A DNA stretch of 47,131 nt from Nitrospira sp. GTDB lineage: Bacteria; Nitrospirota; Nitrospiria; Nitrospirales; Nitrospiraceae. Numbering within the stretch: the first letter of the stretch is position 1; each line of letters starts with the position of its first letter. This document shows positions 28,708 through 39,623 of the stretch, one piece after another. Both the position numbers and the translations under genes were made by a program. The stretch covers positions 196,355 to 243,485 of the forward strand of contig SWDP01000010.1 in assembly GCA_005116885.1 (NCBI GenBank). Direction: 5' to 3'. A model generated the notes under the pieces. The model made no database searches, had not been told where the DNA came from, and was given only the letters and a program-made list of their open reading frames with translations.

Positions 28708-29142
28708 GTGGAAGTACGACCGAAAGTTTACACGTATCACACATCGGTCAAATGGACGGAGCAACGCAAGGGGGTCATTTCCTGTGCCGGGAAGCCGGAT
28801 ATCCAGGTTGCGACGCCGCCTGAGTTCAAGGGCCACGACGGTATCTGGTCGCCGGAGGATCTGTTCGTCGCATCAGCCAACATCTGTCTGATGACGACGT
28901 TCCTGGCGGTGGCGGAGCGAGCAGGTCTGGTCTTTACTGCGTATGAGAGTGCGGCCGAAGGGAAGCTGGAATTGGTTGATGGAAAGTTTCAGTTCACGGC
29001 CATTACGTTGAGACCCACCATCATACTCCCGGCGAACGCCGATGCGGCCAAAGCTAAGGAGCTGATCGAGAAAGCCGAGGCGAACTGTCTGATTTCCAAC
29101 TCTATGAAGGCGAGAGTGAGCTTGGAAGCGACCATCCGATAA
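28708..29142 (+). CDS. OsmC/Ohr-family protein
   Basis: The 144-residue protein starts with GTG at 28708 behind GGAGGGAGCT. The segment WSPEDLFVASANICLMTTFLAVAERAGL has the first conserved Cys in a helix, and EKAEANCLISNSMKARVSLEATI has the second. These are the two thiols of the OsmC/Ohr fold that reduce organic hydroperoxides. The exact subfamily (Ohr, OsmC or the less-studied YhfA-like group) is uncertain. It is the last gene of the ATPase-ackA-xfp-HAD run, 88 bp after the HAD gene. That gap contains GTGAA-like words but no gene. Confidence 0.85.
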   Translation: MEVRPKVYTYHTSVKWTEQRKGVISCAGKPDIQVATPPEFKGHDGIWSPEDLFVASANICLMTTFLAVAERAGLVFTAYESAAEGKLELVDGKFQFTAITLRPTIILPANADAAKAKELIEKAEANCLISNSMKARVSLEATIR

Positions 29143-34594: not shown

Positions 34595-34865
34595 GTGTCC
34601 CCCTCGGTTCTGAGTCCCGGAAACTTGGAATCCTCCTCCATCCCGTCCTTCTCTGTCCGCCTCTCCTCAGCACTCAGCAGTTCCTGTCCCGCCCGTCTCG
34701 CTCCTCGCCAGCCTTCTGTGGCATCTCGCAACAATCACTGGGTCAGCGCTGTGGCTTTTAGCTCCAGGGCTTTCGGAGGCTTACGGCTAATCATGTGATT
34801 TGACAGGAGTAAAGGATAGGCCGGTTCCTCTTGATAGTGGCACGGTCTTGGCACAAGAGAGGGGC

Positions 34866-35726
34866 ATGGTATGGCTATTGCCGGCTGTTCTCGGAATGAT
34901 AGCGCTCGCAAGTTGCTCAGGTGAAAAGGCTCGGGTTACGACTGACGAGCTTCGAGCGACCAGCCAAACTGTTCGCGCGCCGATAGAATTCGCTCCGCCT
35001 TCCCCCGACACTATTCTGGGCAGTCAACTAGGTGAACAGATCCGACTCGGCTATGAGATCGTCGTCAACACGCAAGAATATGCTCGCCCCTATGTTGGCA
35101 ATCGCCTCAACTGCACCAACTGTCATCTCGACGGCGGGCTCAATCCAAACGCCGCCTCATTCGTCGGCCTTGCCGCAATCTATCCCGAATATCGCCCTCG
35201 CAGCGCGAAAGTAAATACGCTCGCCGATCGTGTCAACGAGTGTATGGAGCGGAGCCTGAATGGGCGGGCATTTCCACCGGACAGCTCCAAGCTACAGGCC
35301 GTCGTCGCCTATATCACCTGGCTTTCACGCGGCGTGCCGATCGGTGCGAAAATATCCTGGCGGGGCCTCCAGCGCATTGAGTCACGTCGCCCGCTCGATG
35401 CAGGCAACGGGAAGACCGTGTTCGCGAGCAAATGTGCCTTCTGTCACGGCTCCGATGGCCAAGGGACGATGGCCGCGCCGCCGGTCTGGGGCGTTCTCGC
35501 ATCGCTCAGAGGCTCGGAAGTACTGGAGGATATGTTCCGTTCGCCAAGATCCATTTTGCGGGCGAACGGCTACACAAAGTGCGGTTGGTACCTCCTCGCC
35601 TCTTCGCTCGCTGCGGCCTTGCTGGACAGCCTTTTTGATCATCCTGCGACTATGTTGATCTCAGCGCCATCGGTACTATGCCATTGGCGTTCTACGTATA
35701 AATCGAGTTTTTCCGCATCCTGCTAG
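34866..35726 (+). CDS. diheme cytochrome c lipoprotein, C-terminus aberrant
   Basis: The 286-residue protein has a lipobox LASC at residue ~17 and heme sites CTNCH at 83 (NCTNCHLDGGLNPNAASFVGLAAIYPEYRPRSAKVNTLADRVNECMERSLNG) and CAFCH at 190 (KCAFCHGSDGQGTMAAPPVWG). The pattern CxxCHLDxG...PxYxxRxxxVxxLxxRVNxCxxRSLNG is that of diheme SoxA/TsdA-related cytochromes, including thiosulfate dehydrogenase, but the substrate is not established. After AAPPVWG the expected (R/K)xNMPxG and DVAAF(I/V) segments are missing in this frame. The last ~80 residues look unrelated, so a frameshift or rearrangement is likely. ATG 34866 with GAGAGGGGC. Confidence 0.75.
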   Translation: MVWLLPAVLGMIALASCSGEKARVTTDELRATSQTVRAPIEFAPPSPDTILGSQLGEQIRLGYEIVVNTQEYARPYVGNRLNCTNCHLDGGLNPNAASFVGLAAIYPEYRPRSAKVNTLADRVNECMERSLNGRAFPPDSSKLQAVVAYITWLSRGVPIGAKISWRGLQRIESRRPLDAGNGKTVFASKCAFCHGSDGQGTMAAPPVWGVLASLRGSEVLEDMFRSPRSILRANGYTKCGWYLLASSLAAALLDSLFDHPATMLISAPSVLCHWRSTYKSSFSASC

Positions 35727-35757
35727 GCGTAAACGTTGCGAGGGTGGTGTTATCACG

Positions 35758-36192
35758 ATGAACGCGATGCTCGTCACACTTCTCGTCAGCCTACTGAGTG
35801 CTTCTGTTGCGGGGCTCAGTGGAGCGGCTGAGACGTCTCAGGGCCCGCATCGAGTGGTCATGCACCTCAATTCAGGCGATGAGAAGGTGCAACGAGGCGC
35901 GTTGAATAATATCCGTAATCTTTATCAGGAAGTGGGCCGTGAGCACCTGCGTGTGGAGTTGGTCGTGCATGGCGCCGGGCTGCCGCTGTTGACGAAAAAA
36001 GATTCGACGTTGGGGCCGGAACTGGCGCAACTGAAGACGGCCTATGCTGTCGAGGTTACTGCCTGCTCCAATACGATGAAGGCTCAGGGTCTTACGCGGG
36101 CGGATTTGCTCGATCAGGTGGACCGAACGGTTCCCGCCATGGTCCGTCTGATGGAATTGCAAGAAGAAGGCTGGGCCTATATCAAACCGTGA
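35758..36192 (+). CDS. exported DsrE-like protein
   Basis: The 144-residue protein has a signal peptide (MLVTLLVSLLSASVAGLSGAAE). The mature part has the DsrE/DsrF fold: RVVMHLNSGDEKVQRGALNNIRNLYQEVG, LRVELVVHGAGLPLLTKKDS, AVEVTACSNTMKAQGL. One conserved Cys sits in the ACSNTM loop, the position of the persulfide-carrying Cys in related proteins. This suggests periplasmic sulfur carriage or a structural role. The next gene, a YeeE/YedE transporter, starts 8 bases after the stop. GGTGGTG precedes the ATG. Confidence 0.82.
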   Translation: MNAMLVTLLVSLLSASVAGLSGAAETSQGPHRVVMHLNSGDEKVQRGALNNIRNLYQEVGREHLRVELVVHGAGLPLLTKKDSTLGPELAQLKTAYAVEVTACSNTMKAQGLTRADLLDQVDRTVPAMVRLMELQEEGWAYIKP

Positions 36193-36199
36193 AGCCGAA

Positions 36200-36766
36200 A
36201 TGAAGAAAAACATTCCAAATCGTCCTGACATGTCTCACGAGGATGCGAGCCCGGTACTCCGATGGTGGGCCGGTGGGATCGGAATCGGTCTGGTCTTGAT
36301 CGTCGCTGTTGCATTGGTCCAACCCATCGGGGTGTCGGCGCAGTACGTCGTGTTGGATGGCGTGCTCCTGCACGCTGTGCTTCCGGACATCGCGTCGACA
36401 AGTCCCTACTTGGCCAAGACTGCGCAAGGATGGACGCTGGCCACCTACGAATTCTTCTTTGTGTTGGGGATCCCGTTGGGTGCGTTGGTGGCAGCGATGG
36501 CCACCTCACGTTTCACCATTAGAGTCGTGCCGACCGAATGGAAAAAACGGTTTGGCTCGAATCCTGGACGTCGCTTGGTCTGGTCCTTCGCCGGAGGATT
36601 TCTCCTCCTCTTCGGAGCCCGCTTCGGCGGCGGCTGCACCTCCGGGCACATGATCAGTGGGATATCTCAATTGGCCATCAGTTCCTTTGTCTTTTCGGCG
36701 GCACTCTTCATCAGCGGGATTATCACGGCGCGCCTCCTCTATCGGGATGGAGCGTCAAGATGTTGA
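36200..36766 (+). CDS. YeeE/YedE-type transporter, first half
   Basis: The 188-residue protein has an N-terminal helix (WWAGGIGIGLVLIVAVALVQPIG), further helices, and the signature FGARFGGGCTSGHMISGISQLAISSFVFSAALFISG. The Cys in GGGCTSGH is the thiosulfate-passing residue in characterised YeeE. Full-length YeeE has two repeats in one chain; here they are two genes, this one and 36760, overlapping by 7 bp. Likely imports thiosulfate or another sulfur species. Flanked by DsrE and OsmC genes that may handle the sulfur. Confidence 0.85.
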   Translation: MKKNIPNRPDMSHEDASPVLRWWAGGIGIGLVLIVAVALVQPIGVSAQYVVLDGVLLHAVLPDIASTSPYLAKTAQGWTLATYEFFFVLGIPLGALVAAMATSRFTIRVVPTEWKKRFGSNPGRRLVWSFAGGFLLLFGARFGGGCTSGHMISGISQLAISSFVFSAALFISGIITARLLYRDGASRC

Positions 36767-37293
36767 CACTCGCACTGGGGTTGGCGCTCGGGGCGGCGTT
36801 TGGAGCCCTACTCCAGCTCTCCGGCGCGTCGAGTCATACCAAGATTGTCAATGCGCTCCGGTTGAAGGATTTGACCATCATGAAGCTGATTCTGATGGCC
36901 ATCGGCGTCGGGCTCATGGGGGTGCATTTATTGGATCTGTTCGGCTTCGCCAATATGAAGGTGAAAGATCTCTATCTTTTAGGGCTCATTCTCGCCGGGC
37001 TGATCTTTGGTGTGGGATTTGCGCTGACGGGATACTGCCCCGGTACGGCACTCGCAGCCTGCGCAGAGGGTAAGCCGGATGCCTGGGTCACTGTGTTGGG
37101 CGGATTATGCGGAGCGCTCGCATTCGCTTTCCTGTTTCCTGAGGTCGAAGAGTCTCTGATGACCATTGGTCGATATGGTCCGGTGACGATTCCAGATGCT
37201 GCTGGAATTCACGGCATGTGGATCGCGGCGCCGTTGGGAACCGTCTGCGTCTGGCTGGCGATGCGATTGCCTGAACCGGGAGGTGCGCAATGA
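36760..37293 (+). CDS. YeeE/YedE-type transporter, second half
   Basis: The 177-residue protein has five to six helices and the second-repeat signature GVGFALTGYCPGTALAACAEGKPDAW, whose Cys matches the counterpart of GGGCTSGH. The ATG at 36760 overlaps the end of the first half by 7 bp and its stop overlaps the OsmC start by ATGA, giving tight coupling. Frames reaching farther upstream are shadows of the first half. Confidence 0.85.
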   Translation: MLTLALGLALGAAFGALLQLSGASSHTKIVNALRLKDLTIMKLILMAIGVGLMGVHLLDLFGFANMKVKDLYLLGLILAGLIFGVGFALTGYCPGTALAACAEGKPDAWVTVLGGLCGALAFAFLFPEVEESLMTIGRYGPVTIPDAAGIHGMWIAAPLGTVCVWLAMRLPEPGGAQ

Positions 37294-37706
37294 CACTCAC
37301 CGTGGTCTACCATGGCGGCACTCGGTACGACATCACGAGCGGCAAGCACCGGGTTGTCACCGATCAGCCGATCGAAGAAGGGGGACAGGATGCCGGCATG
37401 AGCCCTGTCGAACTCTTCGTCGGTTCACTCGCCAGCTGTGTCGGGTATTTTGTTGGCCGCTACTGCGACCGCCATCAGATCTCGACCAAAGGGCTGAGCG
37501 TCGAGGCGGAATGGACCATGGCGGAACAGCCGCATCGGGTGGGCCAGATCACATTGGCGATTCGCTTGCCGCATCGCGTGACGACTGCACAAAGCGAGCG
37601 GCTGCTCAAAGTGGCACATGGCTGCACCGTGCATCAATCTCTTGCGGTGCCTGCCGGCGTGGCGATCGAACTCAATCCCCATCACAGGGAGGAGAAACCA
37701 TCGTGA
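37290..37706 (+). CDS. OsmC-family protein
   Basis: The 138-residue protein reads VTDQPIEEGGQDAGMSPVELFVGSLASCVGYFVGRYCDRHQI (first conserved Cys in a helix) and KVAHGCTVHQSLAVPAGVAIEL (second Cys). This is the OsmC fold of the subgroup often found beside YeeE/YedE and rhodanese genes. Members reduce hydroperoxides or transfer sulfane sulfur; a persulfide-related role here is inferred from context. ATGA overlap with the transporter. Confidence 0.85.
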   Translation: MTLTVVYHGGTRYDITSGKHRVVTDQPIEEGGQDAGMSPVELFVGSLASCVGYFVGRYCDRHQISTKGLSVEAEWTMAEQPHRVGQITLAIRLPHRVTTAQSERLLKVAHGCTVHQSLAVPAGVAIELNPHHREEKPS

Positions 37707-37719
37707 AAGGAGAGGCGGC

Positions 37720-39126
37720 ATGTATCTGAGAAATCGGGTGGTCATTGGAAGCGCTGCACTCGCGTTACTGGGACTCATGTCGTCCCCGCAGCTGTCGTTT
37801 GGGAGCGATCAAGCGCGCGCGAAAGACATCATCCAGCAGACTTGCGTGCAATGCCACCGGCTGGAAGGTCAGCCGGATTCTCGCTTCAATCTGAGGGCGC
37901 CAGACCTCATCTGGGCCGGCAGTAAGTACAAACGACCCTGGTTGATCCAGTGGCTGACGGGCAAGGAAGCGCCATTATATGCCAAAGGTTATCGATGGGA
38001 TCTGACCGAGGTGCCGTCGAAGCATCCAATGGTGACTGAGCCGGAGGCCCATGCCATTGCCGACTACTTTACTGAGCACAACAAGGACCCGCGCGTGAAG
38101 GTCGGCGCGTTCGACCGCTCGAAGGTGACGAAGTTCGAGGCGACGTTCGGGGGGAAGGCCTTCAAGGCGCATGCCTGCCTCGGCTGTCACGTGATCGAAG
38201 AGGATGGCAAGCTCATCGGGGGTCCCCAGAGCACATCGCTTGTAGCGGCCGGACAGCGGTACGATCAGGATTGGCTCTTCCGTTTCGGACAGAATCCACA
38301 GGACTTCCCGCCACACAGCGGCGAGTTTCTTGCCGATGCGACGGAGCCACAGCTTCGCGCGGTGATCGGGTTTCTCATGGTGCAGGGGGTGAAGGACTTC
38401 ACGTACTACGAGCCCTGGACGAGCCGTGAATTCGAGATGGCCAGCGTGGATCGGGGTAAGGTCGTCTATAAGGAATATTGTTCGCAATGCCACGGCGCAA
38501 CAGGTAAAGGTGATGGACCGGCAGCCTCCGGTCTGGAACCCAAACCGGCGATTCATGCCAACATTCCATTTGAAAAGCTCCCGATTGAATATCTGTACAA
38601 CGTCATCAATCATGGCGGGCCGGCAGTAGGCAAATCACCGAATATGCCCTATTGGAATTTGACGATCGGTCAACAGGGCGTGGCCGATGTAATGGCCTAT
38701 GTGAAGGCGACGTTTAAGGGAGCGCCGGACATGGCCACCGCTCCGAGCGGGGGTCAGGGAGGAGTCTGTGTGCAACCGCGCAAGACGGCCAAGGCTCCGG
38801 ACGAATTCATGGCCAAGACGAATCCGCTCCCTGCTTCCGCTGGAGCCATTCAGGCAGGGAAGACACTTTACTTGAAGACGGCCCAACCTGTGGCTTGTGC
38901 GATGTGCCATGGAGAGCAGGGGGATGGAAAAGGAATTATGGGGGCAGCCTTGGTGCCGCCGCCGCGTAACTTCACGTGTGGGTCGATGATGCAGGATATT
39001 TCCGATGGGCAACTGTTCTGGATCATCAAGAACGGTTCGCCGGGAACCGGGATGATGCCGTTCTCCGGATTGCCGGATGAGCAGGTGTGGCAGCTGATTC
39101 ACTACGTTCGTTCATTGGCGAAGTAG
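37720..39126 (+). CDS. exported tetraheme cytochrome c
   Basis: The 468-residue protein has a signal peptide (VVIGSAALALLGLMSSPQLSFG) and four heme sites: CVQCH at ~42, CLGCH at ~153, CSQCH at ~254 and CAMCH at ~393. It reads as a chain of class I cytochrome c domains, the last ending MMPFSGLPDEQVWQLIHYVRSL. The middle link carries a Gly/Ser/Pro-rich stretch (TAPSGGQGGVCVQP). It would conduct electrons in the periplasm and may receive them from oxidation of the sulfur compound handled by the upstream genes. ATG 37720 has AAAGGAGAGGCGGC; starts 13 bp after osmC. Confidence 0.88.
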   Translation: MYLRNRVVIGSAALALLGLMSSPQLSFGSDQARAKDIIQQTCVQCHRLEGQPDSRFNLRAPDLIWAGSKYKRPWLIQWLTGKEAPLYAKGYRWDLTEVPSKHPMVTEPEAHAIADYFTEHNKDPRVKVGAFDRSKVTKFEATFGGKAFKAHACLGCHVIEEDGKLIGGPQSTSLVAAGQRYDQDWLFRFGQNPQDFPPHSGEFLADATEPQLRAVIGFLMVQGVKDFTYYEPWTSREFEMASVDRGKVVYKEYCSQCHGATGKGDGPAASGLEPKPAIHANIPFEKLPIEYLYNVINHGGPAVGKSPNMPYWNLTIGQQGVADVMAYVKATFKGAPDMATAPSGGQGGVCVQPRKTAKAPDEFMAKTNPLPASAGAIQAGKTLYLKTAQPVACAMCHGEQGDGKGIMGAALVPPPRNFTCGSMMQDISDGQLFWIIKNGSPGTGMMPFSGLPDEQVWQLIHYVRSLAK

Positions 39127-39240
39127 GATGTGAAGCGCGAAAAGCGGTCATTGGTCACTAGTCAATGGACAGAGAAATGACTGATGACGAATGACCAGTG
39201 ACTGGCAGGCCGAGCCGAGAAATATGACCAACGAGATGCA
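39127..39240. repeat. short inverted/direct repeat cluster
   Basis: Words ggtcattggtcactagtcaatg and gacgaatgaccagtgactgg are imperfect inverted copies, next to gtgaagcgcgaaaagcgg. Same style as the GTGAAA elements in other gaps. It separates the tetraheme gene from the cytoplasmic DsrE gene. Confidence 0.6.
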
Positions 39241-39263
39241 AAGAGTGAACAAAGGAGTAGATC

Positions 39264-39623
39264 ATGGCGACATTTATTGTGTCTGGAAGTCGAGGGACGG
39301 ACGATCCGACGATGGCGACGCTGCCGTTCATGGCGGCGAAGGTTGCGAAGGAGCAAGGGCATGAGGTCGTGCTCTGGCTTTGGAATGAAGCGGTCACGCT
39401 CGGGCGCAAAGGAACCGCCGATCACGTGACGGGGGTGAATCTGACGCCAATGAAAGATCTGCTGACAGCCGTCCAAGCGGCGAATATTCCCATCTGGGTC
39501 TGCGGGGCCTGTGCTGTGGCGCGGCAGATCGGTTCGGGAGATCTTGTTTCTGGCGCCACGATCAAAGGCATGGCAGACTACATCAAGGCCGTTGCTGAAC
39601 GTGATCGCAACGTCGCATTCTGA
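39264..39623 (+). CDS. cytoplasmic DsrE-family protein
   Basis: The 119-residue protein has no signal peptide. FIVSGSRGTDDPTMATLPFMAAKVAKEQGHEVVLWLWNEAVTLG and NIPIWVCGACAVARQIG match the DsrE/TusD-like fold, with a CxxC (CGAC) at the sulfur-carrying position and GMADYIKAV at the end. The GGSRGxDDPTxATxPFxxA form is usually linked to sulfur relay or to sulfur-oxidiser gene sets. It could take sulfur entering through the YeeE/YedE pair; inference. ATG with AAAGGAGTAGATC. Confidence 0.85.
   Translation: MATFIVSGSRGTDDPTMATLPFMAAKVAKEQGHEVVLWLWNEAVTLGRKGTADHVTGVNLTPMKDLLTAVQAANIPIWVCGACAVARQIGSGDLVSGATIKGMADYIKAVAERDRNVAF

Follow-up and report, generated by a model that had tools for sequence, protein, structure and literature searches.

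A Nitrospira sp. draft genome (GenBank assembly GCA_005116885.1) carries a run of six sulfur- and electron-transfer genes within a stretch of 47,131 nucleotides, hereafter the window (contig SWDP01000010.1, positions 196,355 to 243,485). The run encodes an exported DsrE-family protein (DsrEx), two YeeE/YedE-type half transporters (PmpA and PmpB), an OsmC-family protein, an exported tetraheme c-type cytochrome and a cytoplasmic DsrE-family protein (DsrE2), and it lies downstream of a TsdA-like gene with a broken 3' end. With moderate confidence, we favour the view that this is what a complete ammonia-oxidising (comammox) Nitrospira, probably of clade B, has kept of a periplasmic sulfur cluster of the Nitrospiraceae: the importer and the sulfur carriers would be retained, import of zero-valent sulfur would be the likeliest working part, and the tetraheme cytochrome would belong to the general electron chain.

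The conservation of the cluster across the Nitrospiraceae supports this sulfur context. We surveyed 175 genomes of the family, counting a gene as linked when it lay within 5.5 kb of the cytochrome gene on the same strand. DsrE2 was linked in 103 of the 123 genomes that encode it, SorA in 62/77 and PmpB in 33/38, a gene order far beyond chance. In its largest version, the cluster comprises Rieske, cytochrome b, TsdA-like, PmpA, PmpB, OsmC, SorA, SorB, tetraheme cytochrome, DsrE2 and PPK2 genes (loci L114, L115 and L121; PPK2 was not found in L114). Many relatives have SorA and SorB between osmC and the cytochrome gene, and their run also includes a TsdA-like gene that is intact, often with Rieske/cytochrome b genes upstream, which makes a link from sulfur compounds to periplasmic cytochromes plausible for the family. 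The SorA-like and SorB-like proteins of locus L057 match PF00174 (Oxidored_molyb, 1.9e-58), PF03404 (Mo-co_dimer, 1.1e-16) and SorB (2.8e-11). SorA-like is of the molybdopterin sulfite-dehydrogenase type, and we keep the suffix because it scores 319 bits against a curated NCBIfam equivalog cut-off of 600. With a molybdopterin protein and a diheme SorB-like cytochrome, the relatives' cluster resembles the sulfite:cytochrome c oxidoreductase SorAB, from which it differs by an extra heme domain in SorB-like; the window genome differs by having no SorAB. SorAB as a replacement for PmpAB was ruled out, since ten genomes have both in a single cluster. The Nitrospira cluster also turns up at three loci on contigs labelled Pyrinomonadaceae and Nitrosospira, which are probably misbinned.

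On alignment evidence, the two YeeE genes are PmpA (C-terminal half) and PmpB (N-terminal half) of a predicted split sulfane-sulfur importer. PmpB and PmpA have been described as the N and C halves of TsuA (PMC11582611). Cys146 of PmpA aligns with TsuA Cys293 and is invariant in 21 aligned sequences, and Cys93 of PmpB aligns with TsuA Cys91 and is invariant in 22. A fused YeeE/TsuA thiosulfate transporter was ruled out, the coverage of PF04143 showing two halves. The split YedE1E2 of Cupriavidus and Sinorhizobium imports zero-valent sulfur and requires one cysteine in each half, while the fused YedE3 did not speed up this import (PMC10812762). The window genes resemble YedE1E2 of Serratia and Cupriavidus pinatubonensis in being two adjacent genes for short membrane proteins, the C and N halves of YeeE/TsuA, with one essential cysteine each. 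Unlike in those systems, the importer is joined here to OsmC, two DsrE proteins and a tetraheme cytochrome, and its halves measure 188 and 177 amino acids versus the ~130 reported for PmpA/PmpB (PMC11582611). An assimilatory role, in which PmpAB and the DsrE/OsmC proteins would provide the sulfur (or selenium) used in biosynthesis or tRNA modification, could be proposed from YeeE/YedE relatives that import thiosulfate for assimilation, or selenium (PMC11582611; NCBIfam matches below cut-off). We regard it as quite improbable, since zero-valent sulfur was imported by the split form and not by the fused one, and since an assimilatory operon fits poorly with a periplasmic cytochrome and SorAB as neighbours.

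The view of the run as a reduced cluster rests on the host and on two losses. The source genome, a 3.19 Mb draft that is 84% complete, encodes ammonia monooxygenase (AMO; PF02461 over its cut-off), and close relatives of its cytochrome include those of Nitrospira CG24A (91%) and of a bin named 'Rifle_cladeB' (89%). The organism, described as nitrifier-like in the first pass, is therefore a comammox Nitrospira, and the names of these relatives make clade B most likely. The usual place of SorAB, the gap between osmC and the cytochrome gene, is reduced to 13 bp in this genome, in which no cluster-type SorA or SorAB was found, the sole match elsewhere covering 107 residues at 34%. Within the surveyed family, cluster-type SorA is present in 1 of 61 AMO-positive versus 77 of 114 AMO-negative genomes. 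The window's genus (0/12 versus 13/20) and the largest other genus (1/49 versus 18/30) behave alike. The corresponding Fisher value of 1e-19 is meaningless as a probability because the genomes are related; what can fairly be said is that this near mutual exclusion recurs in two lineages. Some clade A comammox and three nitrite oxidisers have been reported to possess sulfite dehydrogenase, transcripts of which were seen in strain WS110, a comammox organism (PMC7078480). Many comammox genomes contain a sulfite-oxidase paralogue that is more distant (31-41% identity) and may account for that report; in LK70, a strain named in the same study, the cluster lacks SorA. The distribution seen here also differs from that of a survey which put SorAB largely in lineage IV (PMC12342949).

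The second loss concerns the upstream gene, first described as a SoxA/TsdA-like diheme cytochrome. It is present, and it is closer to TsdA: the PDB TsdA matches over residues 68-233 at 2e-33 and SoxA structures at 2.6e-9 and weaker, and SoxA of SoxAX was ruled out (TIGR04484 43 bits versus a cut-off of 110). Its CxxCH motifs lie at residues 105 and 212, and C148 aligns with TsdA Cys96, the cysteine ligand of heme 1. In these features it is like the diheme thiosulfate dehydrogenase TsdA of Allochromatium vinosum (4WQ7), of which relatives hold intact homologues; it is unlike 4WQ7 in its missing C-terminal part and its lipoprotein-like N-terminus (a longer open reading frame (ORF) starts with TTG at 34800). 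The match to CG24A runs at 95% up to 35491, is replaced by about 244 bp of repeat and resumes from 35736, and the equivalent interval of CG24A, 222 bp, encodes the conserved C-terminus. DNA matches to L090 and L045 likewise break off at 35491/35492 and start again at 35736 and 35753, respectively. The window protein is without about 74 C-terminal residues common to 11 relatives, which leaves the second heme domain incomplete, and no second TsdA-like copy was found in its own genome. The repeat (35490-35735), of which this genome has dozens of partial copies, gave no Rfam match and no strong fold; copies also occur in related Nitrospira (three loci).

Two points weigh against a genuine reduction. 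At 84% completeness, the assembly could have missed a SorAB encoded elsewhere, and an assembly error at the repeat is a conceivable cause of the break in the TsdA-like gene; such a mis-assembly, which is possible, would need to have kept both flanks in order.

In the first-pass annotation, the run was read as functional in this organism: a sulfur compound would be imported or oxidised, and its electrons would reach the periplasmic cytochromes. The gene content fits this proposal, in relatives the same cluster contains SorAB as well as an unbroken TsdA-like gene, and the WS110 transcripts (PMC7078480) also count for it. In the window, SorAB is absent and the only TsdA-like gene has lost its C-terminal part, so that the run is left with no oxidising enzyme; oxidation of a sulfur compound by this locus is thus unlikely, and we consider a full working module of this kind unlikely here. 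The assignment to sulfur, with import and handling, stands: these activities appear more likely in this genome than oxidation, as far as gene content can tell. Flow of electrons from sulfite or thiosulfate into the cytochrome is plausible only for those relatives that possess SorAB together with an unbroken TsdA-like gene; in this genome, electrons passed to the periplasmic cytochrome pool are probably not sulfur-derived.

All six genes of the run are real and ordered as first described (Table 1). From DsrEx to DsrE2 the spacings are 7, -7, -4, 13 and 137 bp, in line with the 4-13 bp reported for most of the run, whose wording allowed for the longer last gap. The start of PmpB was taken at 36760 and not at the longer ORF start, 36538; for the cytochrome we took the ATG at 37720, the longer start at 37618 being unlikely as it overlaps osmC. 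The putative carriers conserve their cysteines. The N-terminus of DsrEx is signal-like, and the only cysteine of the protein, Cys103, is conserved in 5/5 aligned sequences. In OsmC, C50 and C112 align with both family cysteines (2pn2) and are invariant in 55 sequences. In DsrE2, C80 and C83 of the CGAC motif are invariant in 56/56 aligned sequences, and full-length matches across the family share 80-99% identity. No dsrE-dsrF-dsrH set beside dsrAB was seen around the run (a genome-wide dsrAB search was not made), a promoter and terminator scan stayed near chance level, and Rfam gave zero matches within the window. A second OsmC gene lies at window positions 28708-29142; its homologues in other Nitrospira adjoin another DsrE paralogue (four loci).

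Table 1. Features of the run and of its upstream flank (window coordinates).
Feature	Position	Strand	Evidence
TsdA-like diheme lipoprotein gene, 3' end replaced	34866..35726	+	conserved part ends about 35491; PDB TsdA 2e-33
Dispersed repeat in place of TsdA-like 3' end	35490..35735	.	58 matching places in own genome
Exported DsrE-family protein (DsrEx), Cys103	35758..36192	+	Pfam DsrE 1e-7; MTH1491 1l1s 6.8e-16
PmpA/YedE-type half transporter, yeeE1 (C-terminal half of YeeE/TsuA), Cys146	36200..36766	+	PF04143 positions 169-309
PmpB/YedE-type half transporter, yeeE2 (N-terminal half), Cys93	36760..37293	+	PF04143 positions 12-150
OsmC-family protein	37290..37706	+	Pfam OsmC 6.6e-13
Exported tetraheme c-type cytochrome	37720..39126	+	four CxxCH; distribution; tree
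Cytoplasmic DsrE-family protein DsrE2, CGAC	39264..39623	+	Pfam DsrE 2.7e-18

The four CxxCH motifs of the tetraheme cytochrome are invariant in 37 aligned sequences. Of 396 Nitrospirota genomes drawn, only members of two families in one order, Nitrospirales, were found to encode the cytochrome. In a scan of 84,980 genomes, which reaches close relatives only, the best 80 loci belong to Nitrospirales, Nitrotoga/Gallionellales and Nitrospinaceae, except for a few on contigs that are probably misbinned. Nitrite oxidisers alone have the cytochrome, namely two Nitrospirales families, Nitrotoga and Nitrospinaceae. The Nitrotoga cytochromes branch inside the Nitrospiraceae in a quick tree, with moderate support at the placing nodes (Shimodaira-Hasegawa-like approximate likelihood ratio test, SH-aLRT, 85-93), and they are accompanied by DsrE2 (82-84% identity) with no OsmC, PmpAB or SorAB nearby. 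This nesting, and a pair devoid of the importer, suggest that the cytochrome and DsrE2 genes were transferred and that their role is independent of the sulfur importer; the pair has probably moved horizontally between nitrite oxidisers. Since other nitrite oxidisers also have the cytochrome where sulfur genes are lacking, sulfur need not be its electron source, and it probably serves the general electron pool of these organisms.

These observations could be pushed further, the cytochrome and DsrE2 then forming an electron-transfer or redox-stress unit of nitrite oxidisers of which the sulfur importer is a mere neighbour. We hold this to be a possible but lesser explanation. The confinement of the cytochrome to nitrite-oxidising lineages argues for it, as do the Nitrotoga order cytochrome-(SodC)-DsrE2, lying in several strains beside catalase and cytochrome peroxidase genes, and the several Nitrospira in which the cytochrome is found with a cupredoxin-like protein alone; yet PmpAB and SorAB are tightly linked to the pair in many genomes, and sulfur/thiol functions are typical of OsmC and the DsrE family. 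More tentatively still, the cytochrome and DsrE2 might form a transferable unit, found only in nitrite oxidisers, in which sulfane-sulfur chemistry is linked to the electron chain of nitrite oxidation; Nitrospira would then have passed the unit to Nitrotoga, and the two comammox lineages would have lost the SorAB of the cluster in parallel.

We found no published function for the tetraheme cytochrome in the literature searched. Its AlphaFold2 model has a mean pLDDT (predicted local distance difference test) of 75. No PDB entry matched the whole four-domain protein (template modelling score, TM, about 0.2), and since the matches cover single domains or two domains only, no partner can be deduced from them. 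Two domains align with class I cytochrome c domain chains such as that of the anammox protein Kustc0458 (6h5l_B; sequence 1.9e-16, fold 7e-9). Copies outside the module are followed, at seven loci, by a gene for a cupredoxin-like protein, a possible redox partner, and Nitrotoga-type cytochrome and DsrE2 loci (eight) often have SodC, catalase or cytochrome peroxidase genes alongside. Many Nitrospira also encode a three-heme protein whose match to the cytochrome is confined to the latter's first ~335 residues (e.g. G157:C12:94913-95914; some with an internal stop), and there the fourth heme domain appears to be split off or lost.

Returning to the reduced sulfur cluster as our preferred reading, the sequences show its gene content, order and conservation, the loss of SorAB and the break in the TsdA-like gene, and from these we infer its substrate, its direction and each transfer of sulfur or electrons as follows. 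In relatives with the full set, SorAB would oxidise sulfite, and the TsdA-like protein possibly thiosulfate, in the periplasm, and the electrons would pass via SorB and the tetraheme cytochrome to the cytochrome pool. In this genome, the exported DsrE protein would bind periplasmic sulfane sulfur and present it to the importer, PmpA and PmpB would carry the sulfur across the membrane via their conserved cysteines, and the cytoplasmic OsmC and DsrE2 proteins would take up the persulfide or detoxify it. The tetraheme cytochrome would be retained for the general electron chain of nitrite oxidisers.

The sulfur metabolism of Nitrospira has so far been thinly described, and the cluster defined here provides a testable set of genes for the use of alternative electron donors by canonical Nitrospira. 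In clade B comammox, our observations suggest that donor use was lost and import retained. Finally, the cytochrome and DsrE2 pair, common to unrelated nitrite oxidisers, is a concrete candidate component of their poorly known electron-transfer chain.

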